From a bacterium (lineage in GTDB: Bacteria > Bacillota > Clostridia > Christensenellales > Aristaeellaceae), in contig JAQXJZ010000104.1 in assembly GCA_029009515.1 (NCBI GenBank), positions 1-48,294 on the forward strand: a DNA stretch of 48,294 nucleotides, read 5' to 3'. Made by a program: the position numbers and the translations under genes. This document shows positions 13,109 through 24,266 of this stretch, piece after piece (position 1 is the stretch's first letter; each line of letters starts with the position of its first letter). Below the pieces are notes generated by a model, which saw only the letters and a program-made list of their open reading frames with translations, ran no database searches and was not told the origin of the DNA.

Positions 13109-14665
13109 TCAGTTTTTCTTTTCCTCGTGATATTCCTGCTCGGTGTTGACGTTCCAGATGTTGGTCTTGTCCGAAACGCCGTTTTCGATGTTCTTGACCG
13201 CCTCAAACGCCGTGGCCATGGAGTGGTCCATGTTGTTGTAGCGGTGCTGGCCGTTGCGGCCCACGCAGTAGAGGTTGTCGAAGGTGTTGAGGTAATCGAC
13301 CACCTTGCCGATGTCGTCGTAGGTGTCGAAGTAGGCAGGATAGGCCTTCTTCACCTTTTCGCGGTGGCTCATGAGCACCTCGGAGGGATCGTTGATCACG
13401 CCCATGGTGCACAGCTCCTGAGAGGCAAAACGGATGGCCTCGTCATCGGTGAGGTTCCAGAAGTCGTCGCCCTCGTCGCAGAAGTATTCCAGACCCACCC
13501 AGACGGTGTGTTCGGGATCCTGCACCATGTAGGGAGACCAGTTGTTGAAAATCTGCATGCGGCCCAGCTTCACGCTCTTGTCATGCACGTAAATCCAGCA
13601 GTCCGGCACGATGTTGCCAAGGGTCTTGTGCTGGGTTTCGTTTTTGAGGTTGAGGCGGTTGACCAGCAGGCCCACGGTCACGTAATCGCGGTAGGGCAGG
13701 CCCTTGGCCACCTTGGCCACGTCGGCGGGCACGTCGTTCATGCCGCCCACCAGATCCTTCACCGGCATGGAGGAGAAGAAGATGTCGGCTTCCATGTCGC
13801 GCTCGCCGTTTTCATCGCGCACGCGCACGGAGCACACCTTGCCATTTTCGGTCTTCACGCCGATGGCCTCGGTGTTCATCAGAATCTTGCCGCCCAGCTT
13901 TTCGATCTCTTCGGCAACGGTTTCCCACAGCTGGCCGGGGCCGAACTTGGGGTAGATGAACTCCTCGATCAGCGAGGTCTGCACGTTCTTCTGGCGCTGC
14001 TCCTTGGACATGAACACCTTGGAGAACATGTCCTTGAGGATGCTGAAAATGCTCAGCTCCTTGGTGCGCTGCTTGCCCCAGCTGGCGTCAATCTCGCTGG
14101 GATGGCGGCCCCAGAGGTTTTCGGTATAGCCCTCAAAGAACATGCTGTAGAGCTTCTTGCCGAAGGAGTTGATGTAGTAGTTCTCCAGATTGTCGTTGGG
14201 CTTCTTGAAAAGCGTGGCCTTGAGGAAGCTGAAGCCCACCGCCATCGTGGTGCCGAAGCCCATGGTCTTGAGGGTATCCAGCTTGAGGCTGATGGGATAA
14301 TCGAAGAACTTGTTGTCCCAGTAGATGCGGCTGACGCGGTTGCGGGTGAGCATCACGCGGTCTTCCTTCTCGGGGTCGGGGCCGTCCTTGGCCAGAGGCA
14401 CGCTACGGCCCAGCACCTTGTCGTCATAGGCGGGCGCGCCCTGAAGGGGCATCATGTCCGCCCACCACTTGGTTACGCGCTGATCCTTGCTGAAAAAACG
14501 GTGGCCGCCCAGGTCCATGCGGTTGCCCTGATAGCGCACGGTTTTGGAAATGCCGCCCACCTGCTTGTCGCCTTCCAGAAGGGTGACTTCGTAGCCGCGC
14601 TTGGCCAGCTCATAGCCAGCGGTCAGACCGGCCGGGCCGGCGCCGATGATCAAAACTTTCTTCAT
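13109..14665 (-). CDS. FAD-dependent oxidoreductase, amine-oxidase/UDP-galactopyranose-mutase fold
   Basis: A 518-residue flavoprotein. The N-terminal [21 protein letters not shown] with [10 protein letters not shown] is the FAD-binding Rossmann motif, followed by the [11 protein letters not shown] segment typical of the protoporphyrinogen-oxidase/UGM-like family. Near the C-terminus, [20 protein letters not shown] closes the FAD site. Family members in cell-surface loci isomerise or oxidise UDP-sugars or polyprenyl-linked sugars; true Glf enzymes are shorter (about 370-390 residues), so UDP-galactopyranose mutase activity is not assured. It heads the leftward operon and lies divergent from the GT-C-like genes, which supports a role in surface glycan synthesis. 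ATG follows AGGAG. Confidence 0.82.
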
Positions 14666-14757: not shown

Positions 14758-14802
14758 GGTGGTAACGCGGCGGAACCATCTGTCACATTTCCACGCGCGG
14801 TG

Positions 14803-14831
14803 TGGCTTTTTATCAGTATCTATGCTATAAT
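14803..14831 (+). promoter_or_regulatory. Extended -10 promoter of the GT-C/Lux operon
   Basis: TATAAT (14826-14831) is preceded by TGC, an extended -10 element. The -35 region (TGGCTT, 14803-14808) is weak, as expected for that promoter class. It would serve the genes from 14880 onward. Confidence 0.6.
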
Positions 14832-14879
14832 ATAGAATTGGTAACCTGTCTTGATGAGTACGAAAGGAGGGTGCGGGCA

Positions 14880-16370
14880 TTGAAGCGGATCAACCTTGCA
14901 AAAATGCAGAAGATCTTTACGGCGCTTTGCGTGCTGGCGCTGATTGCAAGCACACTTCCGCTGTATGCAATTGCCTTCCACAACCATCCCTACTACGACG
15001 ATTACGGCTTTTCCGCCGCTGTGCACAAGGCATGGCAGGAAACCGGCAGCGCAAAGGCGCTTGCACAGACGGCGTTTGCCAGTGCGCGCAACACCCGCAT
15101 GACGTGGCAGGGCACCTATACCGGCACCATTCTGAGCAACTTCCAGCCCGGCGTGTTTTCCGAAAGCCTGTACTGGGTGGGCACGTTTATCCTGCTCACG
15201 GCGCTGATCGTGTGTTTTGCGTTCTTCTTTGAAACGCTGTTTCAGAAATTCGGCTTGGAAAAGTGGGCGAGGGTGAGCCTCGGCGCGCTTTGCATCACGC
15301 TGATGATCCAGTTCATGCCGGACGTGGGCGAGGCGTTTTACTGGTTCAACGGCGGCATTGGCAATGTGTTCATCTATTCGCTTCTGGCGCTGGCTGCGGC
15401 GCTTGTGATGAAGCTGCTTGCCGCAAAGGGCAGGGCCATCGGTCTGATGATCGCGCTGCTTGTGCTGGCGGTGCTTTTGGGCGGCGGCAGCTATGGCGGA
15501 GGCCTGTTCGGCCTGTGCCTGTGCGCGGTGCTGCTCATCTGGCTGTTTGCAAAGAAGCATGAAAAGCGCTGGCATGTGAGCGCGCTGGTGCTGGTGTTCC
15601 TAGCCTGTTTCGTGTACAGCATGGCCGCGCCCGGAAACGCCGTGCGCGCCAGCGTGATCAAGTACGAGTCCTCGGCGGTCAAGACCGTCATCCAGGCCAT
15701 GTACTACGGCATGGCGCAGCTGGGCAGCTATATCACGCTGCCCATTATCGCCGTGACGCTGGTGATGATCCCGGCGCTGTTTGAGGCCGCAAAGAAGAGC
15801 CCGTGGCAGTTTTCTCATCCGTGGCTGGCCGCTGCGCTGGGCGTGTGCCTGTACTGCACGCAGTTTGCGCCGCCGCTGTATTCCATCGCCTCCATTGGCG
15901 CGGGACGCATTGTGAACACGTACTATCTCAGCTTTATCGTGCTGTGGTTTGTGTTTGTGTATTATCTGCTGGGCTTCATCGCGCGGCAGGAAATCAGCCT
16001 TCCGCAGATGGACGCCCGCCGCTTCGGCGCACTGGTGCTGGTTTCGCTGTGCGTTTTGGGCACGGGCTGCCTGGCTTTCAAGCGCCCGGGCGAGGTGCTC
16101 TATGGCGCGCAGAACATGTCCGGCCCCAGCGCTGCGCTGTCCCTCCTGACGGGCGAAGCGGCGCTGTATGATGATGAGATGACGCAGCGCGAAATCCTGC
16201 TCAATGATGAAACGCAGCCGGTGGTGACGCTCAAACCCCTCACCGCCGTGCCTGCCGTGTTCATGGATGATCTCATCCAGATAGACGCCGTGTACGATGT
16301 GCGCCCGTCGCTGTGCCTGTACTATGGCAAGCAGGCCATCCTCATCGAAGGGGAGGTGGATGTACCGTGA
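14880..16370 (+). CDS. Multi-pass membrane protein, GT-C-like (DUF6056-type), copy 1
   Basis: A 496-residue protein with about ten to twelve hydrophobic helices. The first helix is followed by a short outer loop with an acidic pair in HPYYDDYGFS (D40, D41), and a second loop contains TWQGTYTG. This is the arrangement of GT-C glycosyltransferases, which use a polyprenyl-phosphate sugar and catalytic acidic residues in the first outer loop; I place it with the DUF6056 group, whose activity is not known to me. The C-terminal 90 residues form a soluble outer segment. Start TTG 14880 is chosen because AAGGAGGG lies 10 bases upstream. The next gene is a clear paralogue and overlaps it by 4 bases. 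Confidence 0.75.
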   Translation: MKRINLAKMQKIFTALCVLALIASTLPLYAIAFHNHPYYDDYGFSAAVHKAWQETGSAKALAQTAFASARNTRMTWQGTYTGTILSNFQPGVFSESLYWVGTFILLTALIVCFAFFFETLFQKFGLEKWARVSLGALCITLMIQFMPDVGEAFYWFNGGIGNVFIYSLLALAAALVMKLLAAKGRAIGLMIALLVLAVLLGGGSYGGGLFGLCLCAVLLIWLFAKKHEKRWHVSALVLVFLACFVYSMAAPGNAVRASVIKYESSAVKTVIQAMYYGMAQLGSYITLPIIAVTLVMIPALFEAAKKSPWQFSHPWLAAALGVCLYCTQFAPPLYSIASIGAGRIVNTYYLSFIVLWFVFVYYLLGFIARQEISLPQMDARRFGALVLVSLCVLGTGCLAFKRPGEVLYGAQNMSGPSAALSLLTGEAALYDDEMTQREILLNDETQPVVTLKPLTAVPAVFMDDLIQIDAVYDVRPSLCLYYGKQAILIEGEVDVP

Positions 16371-17887
16371 AGCTTGCTTTGATGAAGCGCCATATTTCCA
16401 ACCGGGCGCTGGTGTGGCTGTGCGTGGCCGGGCTGCTGGTAAGCCTGCTGCCGCTTTACGCGCTTTCGTTCTACAACCACGCCTGCTATGACGACTTTGG
16501 CTTTTCCATCCTTACGCACGCTGCGTGGCGCGACAGCGGCAGCCTGTGGGATACTTTCACCGCAGCGCTGGGAAACACCGTAGGCATCCGCCAGACATGG
16601 GAGGGTACCTACGCCACATCCTTTATCAGCGCGCTGCAGCCTGCGCTGATGGGCGAAAGCAACTACTGGATCACCACCGCGGTGCTGCTCACGTTTTTCC
16701 TGTTTGCGGTGTGGTTCTTCCTGCGCCAGATACTGTTCAAGGTGCTGGGCGCGGACCTGAGCACGTTCTGGATGGCGTTCAGCGCCATGGCGTTTGTCAT
16801 GATCCAGTTTGTGCCGGATCTGAGCGAGGCGTTCTTCTGGTTCAACGGCGGCGTGGCCTACACGCTGATGTGGTCGGTCATGCTGGTGCGCCTGGGCGTG
16901 TGGGTGTGCTTCACGCGGGCCAGGACGCGCGGCGGCAAGTGGGCGTATGGCATCCTGCTTTTGCTGGTCAGCGTGGTCATGGGCGGCGCCAAGTACTCCA
17001 CGGTCCTGCTGGCTGTGCTTATCGATGCGCTCATCGTGCTCTACGGTTTTTGGAAAAAGCGCGGCGACCGCTTTGCAAGGCTTGCGGCGTTTGCGGTTTT
17101 GATGGTGTGCTTCGTGTTCAGCATGGTGGCGCCCGGCAATGGCGTGCGCGCCGAAACCCTCATGGGCGGCGTATCTGCGCCGGTGGCCATCCTGCAGGCG
17201 TTCTACTTTGGCCTTGCGCTGATGGGCAGCTGGTTTTCGCTGCCGCTTTTGGTGGTGTGGATGTTTGTGGCCTGGCAGCTGACCGAGGCGCTGCGCGGCT
17301 GCCCCTACCGGTTCAACCATCCGGTGTGGATCACCATCCTGAGTGTGTGCCTGTTCTGCGCGCAGCTGGCGCCTACCATCTACACCGGCAATTACATCGG
17401 CGATGGCCGAACCGTCAACACCTATTTCTACACCTTCGTCATCATGAGCTGCGCGCTGGTTCTGTACTGGATGGGCTGGTACATGCGCCGCGCTGAACGG
17501 CGCAGCCCGTTCCCAGCCATCGGCACCAGCAGGAAGGACGGATTGCGCGTTGCGGCCTTTGTCGTGGCGGTGGTGCTGCTGGTGATTGGCTGCGTCAGCT
17601 ATCGTCCGGACGGCGCTGAGGAACGCGGCCTGCACAACGTAGCCTCCGTGAGCGCGCTGCGCTCCATCCTGAATGGAGAAGCGGCGGCCTACGACCGTGC
17701 CATGGACGAGCGCGACGCAGCCATGAACGATCCTGATCAGCCGGAAGTGGTGCTCAAAGAGGTGGAAGAAATCCCCGATGCGTTCATGGGCGATGCGCTG
17801 GACAGCCCCAACATCGACTATGTGCTGCACCTGTACAAGGAATACTACGAAAAGCAGCAGGTGACCACCGCTGCACAGGAGGAATAA
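16367..17887 (+). CDS. Multi-pass membrane protein, GT-C-like (DUF6056-type), copy 2
   Basis: A 506-residue paralogue of the preceding gene, with the same loop motifs: ACYDDFGFS (D42, D43), TWEGTYATS, FVPDLSEAFFWFNGG and a VAPGNGVRAE segment that matches VAxPGNAVRA-like sequence in copy 1. The start GTG 16367 overlaps the upstream stop (GTGA) and has GGAGG 10 bases before it; ATG 16382 is an alternative. Tandem duplication with strong divergence outside the motifs suggests two transferases adding different sugars, or a heteromeric enzyme. The last 60 residues are charged and probably outside the membrane. Function is inferred from topology only. Confidence 0.75.
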   Translation: MKLALMKRHISNRALVWLCVAGLLVSLLPLYALSFYNHACYDDFGFSILTHAAWRDSGSLWDTFTAALGNTVGIRQTWEGTYATSFISALQPALMGESNYWITTAVLLTFFLFAVWFFLRQILFKVLGADLSTFWMAFSAMAFVMIQFVPDLSEAFFWFNGGVAYTLMWSVMLVRLGVWVCFTRARTRGGKWAYGILLLLVSVVMGGAKYSTVLLAVLIDALIVLYGFWKKRGDRFARLAAFAVLMVCFVFSMVAPGNGVRAETLMGGVSAPVAILQAFYFGLALMGSWFSLPLLVVWMFVAWQLTEALRGCPYRFNHPVWITILSVCLFCAQLAPTIYTGNYIGDGRTVNTYFYTFVIMSCALVLYWMGWYMRRAERRSPFPAIGTSRKDGLRVAAFVVAVVLLVIGCVSYRPDGAEERGLHNVASVSALRSILNGEAAAYDRAMDERDAAMNDPDQPEVVLKEVEEIPDAFMGDALDSPNIDYVLHLYKEYYEKQQVTTAAQEE

Positions 17888-17890
17888 GCC

Positions 17891-18634
17891 ATGCTCCTTC
17901 AGGGAAAAAACGCGCTCATCACCGGCGCGGCGCGCGGCATTGGCGCGGCCACGGTGGAAGTGTTTGCGCGCGAGGGCGCCAATGTGTGGGCCTTTGCCCG
18001 CAAGCCCAATGAAGCCTTTGAACAGCGCTGCGCGGAGCAATCCGCAAAGTACGGCGTGTGGGTGAAGCCCGTGTACTGCGAGCTGGGCGATACCGCCGCC
18101 ATCAAGGAAGCCTTCAAACAGGTCATGGCGGACAAGCAGCCCCTGCATGTGCTGGTGAACAACGCCGGCATCATGGGCGAGGACCGCATGTTCCAGATGA
18201 CCTCGGAGGCGGATATGCGCTCCATCTTCGACATCAACTTCTTTGCCATGATCGAGGTCAGCCGCCTGGCCACCCGCCTCATGGCACGGGGCAAGCAGGG
18301 TGCGGTGGTGAACATCGCCAGCATCGCCGGCATCGACGGCGACAGCCGCCTCGACTACTCCGCCTCCAAGGCTGCGGTCATCACCGCCAGCAAGAAGATG
18401 GCCAGAGAGCTGATCAGCGTGGGCATCCGCGTCAACGCCCTTGCGCCCGGCTTTACCGATACGGATCTGGTGAAGGACCTGAGCGAGAAGGTCGTGCAGG
18501 AGCAGACGGAAAAGATCCTCATGAAGCGCAAGGCGCACCCGGAGGAGATTGCCAATGTGGCGGCCTTCCTGGCCAGCGATATGGCCTCCTACGTCACCGG
18601 TCAGGTGTGGCGCGTGGACGGCGGCATTCTGTAA
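17891..18634 (+). CDS. Short-chain dehydrogenase/reductase, FabG-like
   Basis: A 247-residue classical SDR. TGAARGIG (11-18) binds NAD(P)H; NNAG (90-93), S144 and Y156-x3-K160 form the catalytic set; the C-terminus (VTGQVWRVDGG) is the family end. FabG-type enzymes reduce 3-oxoacyl-ACP. Because the next gene is a separate acyl carrier protein, followed by an acyl ligase and LuxE/LuxC proteins, this enzyme probably acts on an ACP-bound or aldehyde intermediate of that module rather than in general fatty acid synthesis. It starts 3 bases after the GT-C-like gene. Confidence 0.9.
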   Translation: MLLQGKNALITGAARGIGAATVEVFAREGANVWAFARKPNEAFEQRCAEQSAKYGVWVKPVYCELGDTAAIKEAFKQVMADKQPLHVLVNNAGIMGEDRMFQMTSEADMRSIFDINFFAMIEVSRLATRLMARGKQGAVVNIASIAGIDGDSRLDYSASKAAVITASKKMARELISVGIRVNALAPGFTDTDLVKDLSEKVVQEQTEKILMKRKAHPEEIANVAAFLASDMASYVTGQVWRVDGGIL

Positions 18635-18675
18635 CCATCAACCAACATTGAAGATATTAAAAGGAGAGAATCACC

Positions 18676-18912
18676 ATGACCAATCTGGAAAAATACATCA
18701 ACGCCTTTGCTGAATCCCTCGAGGTTGCCCCCGAAAACGTGCCCGCCCTCAAGTACGGCGAGAGCGAACAGTGGGACAGCGTGGGCCACATGAGCCTGAT
18801 CGCCGCGCTGGAAGATGCGTTTGACATCATGATGGACATGGACGATATCATCGACCTGAGCTCTTTTGAAAAGGGAAAGGAGATCCTGGCGAAGTATGAT
18901 GTGGAGATTTGA
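18676..18912 (+). CDS. Dedicated acyl carrier protein
   Basis: A 78-residue acidic helical protein with WDSVGHMSLIAALEDAFDI; Ser35 is the 4'-phosphopantetheine attachment site and occurs in the usual DSxxH/M context. The overall length and helix pattern are those of ACPs. It is distinct from a housekeeping AcpP by its position between an SDR and an acyl ligase, so it likely carries the acyl chain of this pathway. AAGGAGAG precedes the ATG. Its 3' end overlaps the ligase gene by 17 bases. Confidence 0.93.
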   Translation: MTNLEKYINAFAESLEVAPENVPALKYGESEQWDSVGHMSLIAALEDAFDIMMDMDDIIDLSSFEKGKEILAKYDVEI

Positions 18913-20302
18913 CCGCTTTGGCGACGCCGTCGCCCTGAAAGATGAATATGGCCAGACGCTTACCTACGCGCAGCTGAAAGCCGAAGGCGAAGCCCTCTGT
19001 CAGGCTGCGGGCGGCAGATGCCTGAGCTTCAACCTCTGCACCAACACCATCGGCAGCGTGATCGGCTACGCCGGCTTCATCGAAGGCGGCATCGTGCCTG
19101 CACTGCTCAATGCCGAGATCGACAAAGAGCTGTTCACCGCGCTGTACGACAAGTATCATCCCGCTTTCCTGTGGGCTCCCGAGAGCTTCGAGGTGGAAGG
19201 CTGCGCGAGCGTGTACGAGCGCTTTGGCTATCATCTGCTCAAGACGCCCTTTGGCAATGAGACCAAGCTGTTTGACGAGCTGGCGCTTTTGCTCACCACC
19301 AGCGGCTCCACCGGCAGCCCCAAGTTTGTGCGCCAGAGCTATGCCAATATCCGTGCCAACACGGACAGCATCGTGGAATATCTGAAGCTGGATGCGACGG
19401 AGAAACCCATCACCACGCTGCCCATGAATTACACCTATGGCCTGAGCATCATCAACAGCCATCTGGACGCGGGCGCGACCATCCTGCTCACCGACAAGGG
19501 CATTGCCCAGCGTGAGTTCTGGAACTTCTTCCGCACCGAAGGCGCCACCAGCTTTGGCGGCGTGCCGTATACCTACGAGATGCTCGACCGCATGCGCTTT
19601 TTGCGCATGGAGCTGCCCAGCCTTCGCACCATGACGCAGGCCGGCGGCAAGCTGCTGCCCGATCTGCACCGCAAGTTTGTGGAGTGGTGCCGTGAGAATG
19701 GCAAGCAGTTCATCGTCATGTACGGCCAGTGCGAGGCCACCGCCCGCATGGCGTATCTGCCGTGGGAAAAGAGCCTGGAAAAGGTGGGCGCGATGGGCGT
19801 GGCCATTCCCGGCGGCCGCTTTGAGCTGATCGACGTGAACGGCGAAGTCATCACTGGAAACGGCGTGACGGGCGAGCTGCGCTACTACGGCCAGAACGTA
19901 ACGCTGGGCTATGCCGAGTGCGGCGCGGATCTGGAAAAGGGCGACGAGCGCGGCGGCGTGCTGGAGACCGGCGATATGGCGCAGCGCGACGAGGACGGCT
20001 ACTTCACCATCGTCGGCCGCAAGAAGCGCTTCCTCAAGATGTACGGCAACCGCGTCAATCTGGACGAGACCGAGCGCATGCTCAAGGCTGCCTTCCCGCA
20101 GTGCGAATGCGCCTGTGCAGGCCGCGACGACCATATGATGATCTTTTCCACCGTGGAAAGCGAGCTGCCCAATATGCGCGCGTTCCTGAGTGAAAAGACC
20201 GGCCTCAACATCAGCGGCTTTCACACCATGGCGCTGGAAGCGATCCCGAAGAACGATTCCGGCAAAACCCTCTACCGTGAACTGGAGAAGTATAATGTTT
20301 GA
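18896..20302 (+). CDS. AMP-forming acyl ligase (ANL superfamily)
   Basis: A 468-residue adenylating enzyme. The P-loop-like motif LLTTSGSTGSPK (132-143), YGQCEAT, TGDMAQRDEDGYFTIVGRKKRFLKMYGNRV and the final lysine motif (PKNDSGKTLYREL) are all present, so it should adenylate a carboxylate and transfer it to a thiol. At 468 residues it is shorter than ordinary acyl-CoA synthetases, with a trimmed N-terminal part. Next to an ACP and LuxE, loading of a fatty or other acid onto that ACP is the likely job. ATG 18896 (or 18899) is preceded by AAGGAG at 13 bases; the frame overlaps the ACP gene. Confidence 0.9.
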   Translation: MMWRFDRFGDAVALKDEYGQTLTYAQLKAEGEALCQAAGGRCLSFNLCTNTIGSVIGYAGFIEGGIVPALLNAEIDKELFTALYDKYHPAFLWAPESFEVEGCASVYERFGYHLLKTPFGNETKLFDELALLLTTSGSTGSPKFVRQSYANIRANTDSIVEYLKLDATEKPITTLPMNYTYGLSIINSHLDAGATILLTDKGIAQREFWNFFRTEGATSFGGVPYTYEMLDRMRFLRMELPSLRTMTQAGGKLLPDLHRKFVEWCRENGKQFIVMYGQCEATARMAYLPWEKSLEKVGAMGVAIPGGRFELIDVNGEVITGNGVTGELRYYGQNVTLGYAECGADLEKGDERGGVLETGDMAQRDEDGYFTIVGRKKRFLKMYGNRVNLDETERMLKAAFPQCECACAGRDDHMMIFSTVESELPNMRAFLSEKTGLNISGFHTMALEAIPKNDSGKTLYRELEKYNV

Positions 20303-21374
20303 TGTAAACCAGCTGCCTTCCCTTCCGGCCTATGACTGGGCGCACGAAGAGAAGCACGCATTCCTCACCCGCGAGCTGTGCGAGCTGACCAGGCACCACG
20401 CCGTGCTCTGCCCGGAGTATGCCCGCATGCTCAAGGCCTGGGGCACGGATGTGGACAAGGTGCAGTCCTTTGAGGAGCTGCCCTTCCTGCCGGTGCGCCT
20501 GTTCAAGGAGTTCTCGCTCAAATCCGTGGCCGATGAAGACCTGCACCGCACCATGACCTCCTCCGGCACCACCGGCCAGCAGGTCAGCCGCATCTTCCTC
20601 GACCGCGAGACTTCCACGCTGCAAAGCAAGGTATTGAGCCGCATCGTGGGTGAATTTCTGGGCAAGCAGCGCCTTCCCATGATCATCCTCGATACCAGCG
20701 CCGTCATCAAGAACCGCGCCATGTTTTCCGCGCGCGGCGCGGGCATTCTGGGCTTCAGCATGTTCGGCCGCGACAAGATTTACGCGCTGGATGAAAACAT
20801 GCAGCTGGACGTGGAAGGCCTCAAGGCATTTCTGGAAAAGCACGAGGGCGAGGACATCTTCCTGTTCGGCTTTACCTTCATGATCTGGCAGCACTTCTGC
20901 GCCGAGCTGCGCAAGGTGGGCTACAAGCCGGATCTCAGCCGGGGCGTGCTCATCCACGGCGGCGGCTGGAAGAAGCTGGCCGACCGGCACATCACCACCG
21001 CGCAGTTCAAGCAGGAGTTGTTTGAAACCTGCGGCCTCACCCGCGTGCATGACTACTACGGCATGGTGGAGCAGACCGGCACCATCTATATGGAGTGCGA
21101 GCACGGCCATCTGCATGCGCCGGTGTGGTCGGATGTCACCATCCGCCGCGCCAGCGATTTTTCCGCTGCAGACGTGGGCGAGCTGGGCCTGATTCAGGTG
21201 TCCAGCCTGCTGCCGCACAGCTATCCCGGCCACTGCCTGCTGACTGAGGATGAAGGCCGCATTCTGGGCGAGGACGACTGCCCCTGCGGCCGCAAGGGCA
21301 AGTATTTTGAGATTGTCGGGCGCATCAAGCGCGCCGAGGTCAGGGGGTGCAGCGATACCTATGAACAGAAGTGA
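20295..21374 (+). CDS. LuxE-like acyl-protein synthetase
   Basis: A 359-residue protein of the LuxE/PaaK-related family. MTSSGTTGQQVS (87-98) is the adenylate-forming motif, HDYYGMVEQTG matches the family's mid-domain motif, and CPCGRKGKYFEIVGRIKRAEVRGC closes it. In luminous bacteria LuxE activates a fatty acid as acyl-AMP and passes it, via a cysteine, to LuxC. It overlaps the ligase by 8 bases and the LuxC-like gene by 14, so the three are coupled. No luciferase (LuxAB) or LuxD is present, so light production is not the function. Confidence 0.88.
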   Translation: MFDVNQLPSLPAYDWAHEEKHAFLTRELCELTRHHAVLCPEYARMLKAWGTDVDKVQSFEELPFLPVRLFKEFSLKSVADEDLHRTMTSSGTTGQQVSRIFLDRETSTLQSKVLSRIVGEFLGKQRLPMIILDTSAVIKNRAMFSARGAGILGFSMFGRDKIYALDENMQLDVEGLKAFLEKHEGEDIFLFGFTFMIWQHFCAELRKVGYKPDLSRGVLIHGGGWKKLADRHITTAQFKQELFETCGLTRVHDYYGMVEQTGTIYMECEHGHLHAPVWSDVTIRRASDFSAADVGELGLIQVSSLLPHSYPGHCLLTEDEGRILGEDDCPCGRKGKYFEIVGRIKRAEVRGCSDTYEQK

Positions 21375-22560
21375 CGCGGTAACGCTGCTTTGCGGCGGCG
21401 ATCTTTCCCAGTCCCGTCCCCTTGTTCCCTTTGCCGAAGAGGTGCTGGCATTTCTTTCCGACCTTGGCAGCGCGCTGATGAAGGACCGCGAGGCCAAGCG
21501 CTACCCCGATGTGGTCACCTTTGCCTTCTTCTGCCGCCGCGCCCATCTGGAAGCGCTGAAGGCGGAGTACGCCGGTCAGGTGGATGACCGCCTTGGCCGT
21601 GGGCTCACCTTCCACATCGCGCCCAGCAATGTGCCCATCAACTTTGCCTATTCGCTGGTGGCTGCGCTGCTGGCGGGCAACGCCTGCGTGGTGAAGGCCT
21701 CCAGTCAGGACTTTGTGCAGACGCGCATTGTGTGCCGCGCCATGCAGAGCCTGTTTGAGGGCGATCACGCCGCCATGGCTTTCTATGTGAATGTGGTCAT
21801 CTATCCGCGCGAGCGTCAGGACGTGACCGAAAGCTACAGCGCCGAGTGCGACGCCCGCATCATCTGGGGCGGCGACGAAACCGTGCGCCGTGTGCGCGCC
21901 GCCGCGATGCCGCCGCATGCCGTGGAAGTTACCTTCCCGGATCGCTACAGCCTGCTGTGCGTGAGTGCGCAGGAAGTGCTTGCGATGGATGACAAACAGC
22001 TTGCGCAAACCGCGCAGGGTTTCTTCAACGATACCTACCTCACCGACCAGAATGCCTGCACCTCGCCCCGCCTCATCTACTGGCTGGGCAGCGGTGAAAC
22101 GCTGAAGAACGCGCAGGAGAAATTCTGGAATGCGGTGCTGGCTTATGTCAAGCCCCGTTATCCCGTGGAACCTGTGGTGGCGGTGGACAAGCTGACCGCT
22201 TCCTACCGCGCTGCCATCGGCCTGGATGGCGCCAAGGTTGCGCCCATGGCGGACAATACCATCATGCGCGTGCAGGTGGATGCGCTCAGCGCTGATATCG
22301 ACGAGCATCGCTGCGCCGGCGGCTTCTTCATCGAGTATGCCGATGAAACGCTGAACGCGCTCATTCCCGTGGTGAAGCGCAAGTATCAGACCCTGTCCTA
22401 TATCGGTCTGGATCGGGAAGAGCTGCGCCGCTTCGTAGTGGAAAACGGCCTGCGCGGTATCGACCGTATCGCGCCGGTGGGTCATACCATGGACTTTGCG
22501 CTCACCTGGGACGGATACGATCTCATCCGCACGCTCAGCCGCCGCATCGCGGCCATTTAA
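21361..22560 (+). CDS. LuxC-like acyl (fatty acid) reductase
   Basis: A 399-residue LuxC-family protein. It keeps the aldehyde-dehydrogenase-like architecture with HIAPSNVPINFAYSLVAALLAGNACVVKASS for NADPH binding and the nucleophile Cys233 in TDQNACTSPR. LuxC takes an acyl group as a thioester on this cysteine and reduces it with NADPH to an aldehyde. Together with the upstream ACP, ligase and LuxE-like protein it makes a complete acid-to-aldehyde route. ATG 21361 lies inside the end of the LuxE-like gene, and the family N-terminus starts here. The product may be a long-chain aldehyde, alcohol (with the SDR) or an aldehyde used to modify a glycan. Confidence 0.88.
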   Translation: MNRSDAVTLLCGGDLSQSRPLVPFAEEVLAFLSDLGSALMKDREAKRYPDVVTFAFFCRRAHLEALKAEYAGQVDDRLGRGLTFHIAPSNVPINFAYSLVAALLAGNACVVKASSQDFVQTRIVCRAMQSLFEGDHAAMAFYVNVVIYPRERQDVTESYSAECDARIIWGGDETVRRVRAAAMPPHAVEVTFPDRYSLLCVSAQEVLAMDDKQLAQTAQGFFNDTYLTDQNACTSPRLIYWLGSGETLKNAQEKFWNAVLAYVKPRYPVEPVVAVDKLTASYRAAIGLDGAKVAPMADNTIMRVQVDALSADIDEHRCAGGFFIEYADETLNALIPVVKRKYQTLSYIGLDREELRRFVVENGLRGIDRIAPVGHTMDFALTWDGYDLIRTLSRRIAAI

Positions 22561-22576
22561 CGAATCGAGGTGCCTT

Positions 22577-23560
22577 ATGGCCAAACCCTTGCTTTCCTTC
22601 GTCATTCCCTGCTACCGCTCCGAAAACACCATCGGCGCGGTGGTGAAGGAACTGACTGAAACCGTCGCTGCCCGTGCGGACGAGTACGATCACGAGATTG
22701 TGCTGGTCAACGACGGCAGCCCCGACCATACCGCCGAGGCGATTGAGAAACTCTGCGAAGAATATCCTTCCATCGTGTTTGTCAACCTGAGCCGAAACTT
22801 CGGCCAGCACAGCGCGCTGATGGCGGGCTTCCATCATGTGAGCGGCGATATCATCGTCTGCCTGGACGACGACGGCCAGACCCCGGCCAACGAGTGCTTC
22901 AAGCTCATCGACAAGGTGGCCGAGGGCTACGACCTGGTGTTTGCAGAGTATCCCAAGCGCAGGCAGAGCTGGTTCCGCAACCTCGGCAGCCGGTTCAACA
23001 CCTTCTGCAATCATTTCTTCTACAACCAGCCCAGGGAGCTGACGGCCAACAGCTACTATGCCTGCCAGCGCTTTGTGGTGGATACCGCTCTGCAGTACCC
23101 CAATCCCTTCCCGTATGTGACGGGCCTGCTGTTTCAGAGCGTGAGCCGCTACTGCAACGTGCCTGTCACGCACCGCGCGCGCATGGAGGGCCAGAGCGGC
23201 TATACGCTCAAAAAGCTGATCACGCTGTGGTTCAACGGCGTGACCGCCTTTTCCATCAAGCCGCTGCGCCTGGCCAGCTATCTGGGGTGGATCATTGCTG
23301 CGGCGGGTTTCCTGTTCGCGCTGGTCACCATCATCCGCAAGCTGTTTGATCCGGCCATGCAGGCCGGGTGGGCCAGCACCATCTCCGTCATGCTGCTTCT
23401 GGGCGGTGTGATCATCTCGCTCATCGGCATCATCGGCGAATACATCGGCCGTATCTACCTGAGCATCAACCGCTATCCGCAGTTCGTGGTGCGCAGCGTC
23501 ACGCGCGGTAAAGAAAAAGAGGAAGCACATGAAAACGACGCACGCAGTATGGGAGCTTGA
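22577..23560 (+). CDS. Polyprenyl-phosphate glycosyltransferase, DPM1/ArnC/GtrB type
   Basis: A 327-residue GT2 enzyme. The catalytic domain has VNDGSPD (44-50), a DDD metal site (97-99) and NFGQHSALMAGF, as in GtrB and ArnC. Two C-terminal transmembrane helices (about 235-260 and 270-300) hold it to the inner face of the membrane. It should move a sugar from a nucleotide donor to undecaprenyl phosphate, creating the donor that GT-C enzymes use outside. This ties it to the GT-C-like proteins at 14880, 16367 and 26504. ATG 22577 has a GAGGTG site 5 bases upstream. Confidence 0.92.
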   Translation: MAKPLLSFVIPCYRSENTIGAVVKELTETVAARADEYDHEIVLVNDGSPDHTAEAIEKLCEEYPSIVFVNLSRNFGQHSALMAGFHHVSGDIIVCLDDDGQTPANECFKLIDKVAEGYDLVFAEYPKRRQSWFRNLGSRFNTFCNHFFYNQPRELTANSYYACQRFVVDTALQYPNPFPYVTGLLFQSVSRYCNVPVTHRARMEGQSGYTLKKLITLWFNGVTAFSIKPLRLASYLGWIIAAAGFLFALVTIIRKLFDPAMQAGWASTISVMLLLGGVIISLIGIIGEYIGRIYLSINRYPQFVVRSVTRGKEKEEAHENDARSMGA

Positions 23561-24266
23561 AAACATCGGCGCTAACGCATGGGAGATCATGCTGGATTCT
23601 TCCGATACGCCGGAAATGCTGGCCGAGGAAGAAAAGCGCATCATCGCGGAAGGCGCCGACTACATCGTGGTCAAAACGCCCGTCAACTGCCAGCAGCTGA
23701 TTTTCGGTCTGCCGAAGTTGGGCTATACCTTTGTGGAAATGGTGTTCCACGTGGCCATCCGCCGCGACAACTACCACATGCCGGACATGATCGCCCGCTT
23801 CGACCGCGGCCTGACCGTGGTGGAGCGCACTGAGGAAAGCGAGCGCCAGCGCGTGTATGACCTGATCCGCGCAGGCGTGTTCGTCTCCGACCGCGTGAGT
23901 ATCGACCCGGCCTTCGGCGTAGAAAAGGGCGGCAACCGCTATGCCAACTGGCTCCGTTCCATGCTGGAGAGGGGCGGATACCTGTACGAAGTCATGAAGG
24001 GCGAAAAGCCCATCGGCTTCTTCGTCATCTGCCGCAAGGACGAAACCACCGTCGATCCTGTTTTGATGGGTCTGTATGACGAGAAGAACGACCGCGGCAT
24101 GGGCGCGCTTCTGCACAAGAAAACCATGGATACCTGCTTTACCCATGAATGCAAGCGCCTCACCAGCACCATCGTAAGCAATAACGCCAAGGTGCTGCAC
24201 GTCTACGTCAACGCCGGCGCAGACATTACCGATACGCTGTACACCTATATCAAGCATATCGGCTGA
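23529..24266 (+). CDS. GNAT-like acyltransferase, WecD-resembling
   Basis: A 245-residue protein overlapping the GT2 gene by 32 bases. The first half is variable; the second half has a GNAT-like run (ERGGYLYEVMKGEKPIGFFVICRKD ... GMGALLHKKTMDTC), and FVSDRVSIDPAFG resembles the region before the acetyl-CoA site of WecD (dTDP-fucosamine acetyltransferase). It may N-acylate an amino sugar, possibly with the acyl chain or acetyl-CoA, but no catalytic residue can be assigned with certainty. Its coupling to the glycosyltransferase supports a glycan role. GAGGAAG precedes the ATG. Confidence 0.65.
   Translation: MKTTHAVWELENIGANAWEIMLDSSDTPEMLAEEEKRIIAEGADYIVVKTPVNCQQLIFGLPKLGYTFVEMVFHVAIRRDNYHMPDMIARFDRGLTVVERTEESERQRVYDLIRAGVFVSDRVSIDPAFGVEKGGNRYANWLRSMLERGGYLYEVMKGEKPIGFFVICRKDETTVDPVLMGLYDEKNDRGMGALLHKKTMDTCFTHECKRLTSTIVSNNAKVLHVYVNAGADITDTLYTYIKHIG

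Follow-up and report, generated by a model that had tools for sequence, protein, structure and literature searches.

A LuxE/LuxC-containing nine-gene unit of a clostridial genus that probably makes and exports an N-acylated amino sugar

What do relatives of the LuxE and LuxC proteins of luminescent bacteria do when their genes lie among glycan genes? This question is raised by a stretch of 48,294 nucleotides (hereafter the window) from a bacterium of the family Aristaeellaceae (Clostridia, Christensenellales; assembly GCA_029009515.1, contig JAQXJZ010000104.1), in which genes for a short-chain dehydrogenase/reductase (SDR), an acyl carrier protein (ACP), an AMP-forming acyl ligase, LuxE and LuxC occupy positions 17891-22560, all on the forward strand. 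A preliminary description of this DNA had assigned the five genes to a fatty aldehyde or alcohol of a surface glycolipid. Our analysis points to another answer, which we hold to be probable though far from certain: the five genes belong to a unit of nine that would serve one pathway making and exporting an N-acylated amino sugar, in which they would supply the acyl group for a WecD-like acylation of 4-amino-4,6-dideoxygalactose (Fuc4N). The genes of the unit are the following:

14802..16370, forward strand: DUF6056 paralogue a, predicted GT-C membrane glycosyltransferase; the start is possibly nearer 14889
16382..17887, forward strand: DUF6056 paralogue b, predicted GT-C membrane glycosyltransferase
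17891..18634, forward strand: SDR, FabG-like reductase of 247 aa (Pfam adh_short_C2, 8e-57)
18676..18912, forward strand: dedicated ACP of 78 aa; Ser35 codon at 18778-18780
18896..20302, forward strand: AMP-forming acyl ligase of 468 aa (Pfam AMP-binding, 3e-35)
20295..21374, forward strand: LuxE-like acyl-protein synthetase of 359 aa; codon of the acyl-accepting Cys352 at 21348-21350
21361..22560, forward strand: LuxC-like thioester reductase of 399 aa; codon of the nucleophile Cys233 at 22057-22059
22577..23560, forward strand: GT2 of ArnC/PgfS type, predicted polyprenyl-phosphate sugar transferase
23529..24266, forward strand: GNAT, N-acyltransferase of WecD fold, predicted to acylate dTDP-Fuc4N

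The tight packing first described for the five genes was confirmed, with a gap of 41 nt after the SDR gene followed by overlaps of 17, 8 and 14 nt. Four of the five products scored far over their Pfam cut-offs (LuxE 1e-48, 166.3 bits against 24.9; LuxC 5e-30, 105.2 bits against 21) and, judged from the sequences, the matches of SDR, ligase, LuxE and LuxC are not due to chance. The ACP gave no Pfam or NCBIfam match when the window protein was scanned, and it was assigned because of the motif WDSVGH, which we take to be that of carrier proteins, together with a weak profile match (E 8e-4) to the solved putative ACP 2lml. The two DUF6056 paralogues, 36% identical to each other, scored 22.4 (a) and 21.7 bits (b), both under the Pfam gathering cut-off of 27, and the structure model of paralogue b shows the GT-C membrane fold. 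The GT2 was rejected as a member of the curated ArnC family, since its score with NF007986 (184.8 bits) is under the cut-off of 529.

To what extent these genes are inherited together was seen in a sample of 17 genomes of the genus, including the window's own, with LuxE matches near 25 bits taken as other ligases and excluded from the counts. A strong LuxE was found in 12 of the 16 other genomes, and in 10 of these 12 the genes for DUF6056 a and b, SDR, ACP, ligase, LuxE, LuxC, GT2 and GNAT are all present in conserved order, the two remaining loci being cut by contig ends; the complete set is also found in G029, a member of another genus. RelA lies downstream of the unit in most nine-gene loci, the window among them, at times past one extra gene, and in G011, where RecJ directly precedes RelA, and in G029 the unit adjoins TrpRS/EamA instead. 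As the flanks change in these two genomes and the order of the nine genes is kept, the inherited unit may be taken to span all nine, about 14802-24266; the right edge drawn earlier at 22560 was thus too early, GT2 and GNAT being part of the same unit. In four loci (L033, at L033:3334-5172, L034, L035 and L037) GNAT and RelA are separated by an open reading frame (ORF) of 613-645 residues with the look of a membrane protein; it is not in the window, and that of L033 gave no Pfam match.

A first indication of what the unit acts upon comes from WecE, whose curated model was passed by 13 of the 17 genus genomes, exactly the 13 that have the LuxE cassette; in the window's own genome this WecE, over the curated cut-off, is encoded on another contig. 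On a RelA tree the four genus genomes without WecE and cassette sit in two separate places, and therefore both were lost or gained together twice; the number of changes on this tree, 2, was equally low in 5 of 500 label shuffles. The surroundings of WecE include two RimK-like ATP-grasp genes in 13 of 14 WecE loci, with G011 as the exception (in the window's genome, G000:C87:29080-32021, equal to L144:7080-10027). One of them was searched for and was present in all 17 genus genomes, also in the four without WecE, which argues that WecE follows the distant cassette and not that neighbour. In a Fisher test over 60 genomes including the window's own, 14 with the cassette and 46 without it, WecE was present in 14 of 14 cassette genomes versus 4 of the 46 others. 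Counted among the 46 were G031, G040 and G059, with LuxE but neither the nine-gene cassette nor a WecE over the cut-off; the LuxE contig of G031 (L047, G031:C213), with an O-antigen-type look and a high G+C content, gave the impression of a possible contaminant of that assembly. The substrate of WecE is supplied by dTDP-glucose dehydratase, which was matched in 12 of the 13 cassette genomes of the genus and in 2 of the 4 others.

The second indication comes from the unit itself, as the structure model of its GNAT is closest to WecD and has the WecD fold. The GNAT set (A4) consisted of the window protein and 13 of 20 strong GNAT rows, with near-copies and doubtful starts excluded, and the LuxE set (A1) of 9 of 17 LuxE rows. 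Compared with the enterobacterial WecE/WecD pair, WecE is over its curated cut-off and the GNAT is modelled closest to WecD, whereas by score the GNAT falls outside the WecD family, and it is linked to a dedicated acyl-making module. It is because a WecD-like GNAT is part of the unit and WecE tracks the cassette that we place the acyl group on an amino sugar.

The same tie was found away from the genus. A genome scan with the LuxE profile gave at least 595 matching stretches in at least 573 relatives, the best 80 of which were kept; after setting aside nine loci of the nine-gene type (L051-L058 and L107), 71 outside loci were left, which are not a random sample and of which 53 lie on contigs of at least 15 kb, some contigs being short. 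Their neighbours, up to nine genes on either side, were labelled by single-linkage clusters, most of which were identified through one representative. A GNAT homologous to that of the window was found in 11 of the 71 loci, and a WecE-type protein (sharing 45% identity or more with the window genome's WecE over 300 residues, a limit chosen after seeing the data) in 11 of the 29 loci with a DegT aminotransferase, counted as DegT genes. WecE-type proteins occur in 9 of the 11 GNAT loci versus 2 of the 60 loci without GNAT (p 4e-8), or 2 of 42 when the latter are restricted to contigs of at least 15 kb (p 6e-7), both p-values being overstated owing to the relatedness of the loci and to an identity limit set afterwards. 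The nine loci with both genes span clostridial groups, Bacteroidales, Marinilabiliales and Smithella.

All five genes, SDR, ACP, ligase, LuxE and LuxC, were together in 44 of the 71 outside loci which, added to the ten genus loci and G029, bears out their co-occurrence in related genomes and supports the earlier view that a LuxE/LuxC pair, served by an ACP, a ligase and an SDR of its own, is linked to glycan genes. GT2 genes accompany the module in 18 of the 71 loci and NeuD genes in 11. Other neighbours suggest that the LuxC aldehyde could be used in a carbon-carbon ligation leading to an extended keto acid or a higher sugar, since a split transketolase (N half in 26, C half in 29 of the 71), NeuB (12) and acetolactate-synthase-like proteins (7), enzymes that accept aldehyde or keto acceptors, are encoded nearby, 8 of the 11 GNAT loci having the transketolase C half. 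The genus's own nine-gene cassette includes no gene of this kind, so that the ligating enzyme would have to be encoded elsewhere in the genome, and we regard such a use as unlikely here. A module variant with NeuB and acetolactate-synthase-like genes, mostly accompanied by a FabA-like gene, was seen in L064, L070, L075, L088, L108 and L113, and there the LuxC aldehyde may undergo such a condensation.

The catalytic residues of the module are conserved. Among the aligned rows, for which 80 named loci gave 65 ACP, 75 LuxC and 80 LuxE sequences (the remaining loci having no copy or a copy under the bit threshold), Ser35 of the ACP (66/66), Cys233 of LuxC (76/76) and Cys352 of LuxE (81/81) are invariant, at the positions that had been predicted for the first two. 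The solved complex 7xc6, which we take to be LuxC-LuxE from Photobacterium, has a cysteine at both aligned positions: Cys233 pairs with the cysteine of DQQACFS in LuxC, in agreement with its proposed role as nucleophile, and Cys352 with the KGCS cysteine of LuxE, the alignment covering only part of LuxC (profile 76-245). The window-type LuxE keeps Cys268, Cys329 and Cys331, invariant in 81 of 81 rows, with a CPCGR motif, presumably resembling that of PaaK-type ligases, that is missing from 7xc6_E at the aligned place. LuxE and LuxC are naturally fused in L158 and L159, as proteins of 789 and 785 residues.

Are these proteins then fatty acid reductases? LuxE and LuxC are homologous to the long-chain fatty acid reductase, and the ligase and the ACP could supply a fatty acyl group to be reduced to an aldehyde or alcohol for a surface glycolipid; in the accessible portions of published accounts, LuxE/LuxC of glycan islands are indeed read as fatty-acid or "liposugar" enzymes (PMC7874193, PMC4875605, PMC7575072, PMC4522980), with "fatty acid synthesis" and "liposugar" as the interpretations of the first two. 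A thioesterase gene is moreover found in 14 of the 71 outside loci, and in nine of these 14 (L075, L085, L090, L092, L094, L097, L098, L104 and L110) it lies directly between ligase and luxE, where a LuxD-like step is expected. However, the scores with the curated NCBIfam equivalogs are far under the cut-offs, 73 bits against 550 for LuxE and 51.6 against 750 for LuxC, so membership in the luminescent families was rejected, and this proposal of the preliminary description is left with distant homology to the luminescent enzymes as its sole basis. In addition, the Pfam scan revealed no chain-elongating gene in the cassette, and the unit has a WecD-like GNAT and tracks an amino-sugar gene. Altogether, we consider a fatty product rather improbable. 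A role in luminescence was rejected, as luciferase (PF00296) was not found in the genome, 86% complete, with a control that matched in 10 of 14, which extends to the genome what had been described for the locus; the search for LuxD (PF02273) gave no match, but its control matched nowhere either. A second LuxC match in the genome (35 bits) was rejected as part of the system, as the matched stretch has no Pfam match at E 0.001.

The data speak less strongly for a small acyl group than for the acylation of an amino sugar. The solved ligases nearest to that of the window are oxalate and malonate CoA ligases, which is weak evidence in so large a family. Among the outside loci, 11 of 71 have a gene for a protein like lactate or malate dehydrogenase (LDH/MDH), in nine of the 11 directly after luxC, and an arginine aligned with the glutamine of solved lactate dehydrogenases, presumably a mark of malate-type specificity, was found in 9 of the 11 proteins, all that could be read, with an alignment to solved proteins for that of L085 only. 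Malate acted upon at one carboxyl by LuxE/LuxC and a dehydrogenase would give 2,4-dihydroxybutanoate (3-deoxy-tetronate).

With this, the proposed amino-sugar pathway may be outlined as follows. WecE, from its distant contig, would make dTDP-4-amino-4,6-dideoxygalactose (dTDP-Fuc4N). LuxE and LuxC would activate a carboxylate of a small acid, the acyl group passing from Cys352 of LuxE to Cys233 of LuxC and being reduced to an aldehyde that the SDR would take to the alcohol, in such a way that a dicarboxylate such as malate would yield a hydroxyacid like 2,4-dihydroxybutanoate. The ligase would load the acid on the ACP, either ahead of the reduction or following it, and the WecD-like GNAT would transfer the acyl group onto the 4-amino group of the sugar. 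The GT2 would then attach the sugar to polyprenyl phosphate and, on the outside of the membrane, the two GT-C proteins would hand it on to a glycan or a protein. The reactions, the dicarboxylate, the identity of the acyl group and the acceptor are all what we infer from the genes; least certain are the acceptor, the substrate and the order in which ACP loading and reduction take place. As to that order, the ligase could first load one carboxyl of the dicarboxylate on the ACP, and LuxE/LuxC and the SDR reduce the free end of the bound molecule. This would fit with the presence of ACP in 57 and of ligase in 66 of the 71 outside loci, and a dicarboxylate would explain the two activating enzymes, since a free carboxyl is required by the ligase and by LuxE alike. 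We see in the ACP-first order a possible variant within the same pathway, its likelihood overlapping with that of the pathway, and adopt it only hesitantly.

Several observations weigh against this pathway. The GNAT scores only 25.7 bits with the curated WecD/RffC model TIGR02382 (cut-off 195.1), by which it was rejected as a member of that family, and it could use CoA in place of ACP. WecE is present without the cassette in four relatives (G018, G035, G044 and G056), both lie on different contigs in each cassette genome, and G008 has the cassette without a match for dTDP-glucose dehydratase, while two cassette-less genomes have one. Regarding the dicarboxylate, the one LDH/MDH-like protein that was scanned fits L-lactate dehydrogenase better (294.5 bits) than malate dehydrogenase (246.7); for another of these proteins the nearest solved structure, 1y6j, likewise has arginine at the switch position, yet is titled L-lactate dehydrogenase. 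MDH-like, thioesterase and transketolase genes are not in the window cassette, so the argument comes from relatives only, and FabA-like genes beside 12 and KAS3-like genes beside 8 of the 71 loci indicate that some copies work with chain-building enzymes.

A close parallel in kind is tetronate synthesis in Vibrio cholerae O1, for whose genes, VC0248-VC0252 (rfbKLMNO), the source study is reportedly that of Morona et al. in 1995. The product of this pathway is the 3-deoxy-L-glycero-tetronyl group, with RfbM as dehydrogenase, RfbO as transferase and RfbN carrying a LuxC part as well as its LuxE part. According to the accessible portions of the published accounts, these are the tetronate genes (PMC3441752, PMC12208996, PMC4772473), RfbN carries a LuxE domain (PMC4772473), and the LuxE-domain protein, the carrier protein and the acyl ligase supply the N-acyl group for a 4-amino-4,6-dideoxy sugar of the surface polysaccharide (PMC3441752, PMC12208996, PMC4772473). 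Compared by kinds of genes and within those portions, carrier protein, ligase and LuxE/LuxC are clustered in both systems, and the acyltransferase and the synthesis of a 4-amino-4,6-dideoxy sugar are matched in kind only, by GNAT and WecE. In the clostridial host, by contrast, LuxE and LuxC are encoded separately, the role of reductase falls to an SDR and that of acyltransferase to a WecD-like GNAT, and the predicted sugar is Fuc4N.

A further parallel concerns flagellin. No pse gene was recognised among the nine, the match of the GNAT to PseH, product of the N-acetyltransferase gene pseH, being weak (19 bits), and Flagellin_N was found in 0 of the 17 genus genomes, with a control that matched in 4 of 14, flagellins of an undetected kind aside. 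On these grounds flagellin glycosylation was rejected, and we consider it highly improbable that the unit is an island of the Aeromonas or enterobacterial type, in spite of the agreement of five genes and of a GT2 downstream of luxC. As far as the accessible text goes, the group II island of Aeromonas contains orf1-orf3, luxE, luxC and fgi-1, with the five ORFs from orf1 to luxC downstream of pseH, and shares with the window ACP, 3-oxoacyl-ACP reductase, AMP-dependent synthetase, LuxE, LuxC and the GT2, in a pseudaminic-acid and flagellin context (PMC7874193). LuxE, LuxC, a CaiC/FadD-like ligase, FabG and Acp are likewise shared, in the portions available, with the flagellin islands of Enterobacteriaceae (PMC4875605) and with the fli insert of Dickeya zeae, the latter with a split transketolase that is not in the window cassette (PMC7575072, PMC4522980). 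The five-gene set is thus already in print for Aeromonas and Enterobacteriaceae (PMC7874193, PMC4875605), and the "undescribed pathway" of the preliminary description does not stand. The flagellin of Aeromonas is reported, in the same portions, to carry a pseudaminic derivative of 376.14 Da and a further 102 Da moiety of unknown nature, which its authors call a carbohydrate while proposing a liposugar (PMC7874193). A dihydroxybutyryl residue, C4H6O3, has a mass of 102.03 Da (other formulas of nominal mass 102 are possible), and from the formula of Pse5Ac7Ac the exchange of one acetyl for C4H6O3 gives 376.148 Da, which is arithmetic and not proof.

The LuxE module is widespread but patchy, since its many relatives contrast with its presence in 18 of 391 genomes of a class sample. 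Among the matches listed, the record titles, many of them of metagenome-assembled genomes, name clostridial groups, Bacteroidales, Flavobacterium, Treponema, a planctomycete, Smithella, Fretibacterium and Gastranaerophilales; among plasmids 53 records matched, Deinococcus, Rhizobium and Ponticoccus included, and a phage search a single distant match. The GNAT was found in 6 of the 391 genomes, the window's own included, by coordinates within about 6 kb of LuxE in four (G000, G117, G194 and G217); in G299 it is accompanied by a distant LuxE encoded on a different contig, and G082 lacks LuxE. In G217 (L161:4540-5266) the GNAT is interrupted (ORFs of 67 and 196 residues), and SDR, ACP, ligase, LuxE and LuxC are open. 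At locus L044 the matches reached just 34-40 bits. Upstream of the unit in the window and divergent from it, positions 13109-14665 encode a PRK07208-type FAD-dependent oxidoreductase over its NCBIfam cut-off.

With the gene set already in print, these data suggest that what is new is its tie to WecE and a WecD-like GNAT in a clostridial genus without detected flagellin; a published link of LuxE/LuxC with WecE/WecD was not found in a literature search whose coverage left out most subscription journals. As a tentative generalization, which we rate as possible and short of an even chance, LuxE/LuxC modules might be a phylum-crossing toolkit that turns dicarboxylates into small hydroxyacyl groups on amino sugars, with light production as one specialised use, with the aldehyde extended in many loci by transketolase or NeuB-type enzymes, and with a dihydroxybutyryl group explaining the 102 and 376 Da masses of Aeromonas. 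With WecE and a WecD-like acyltransferase tied to it, a module with at least 573 LuxE relatives gains a concrete chemistry open to testing, and a possible identity emerges for the unexplained flagellin modification (102 and 376.14 Da) of Aeromonas.

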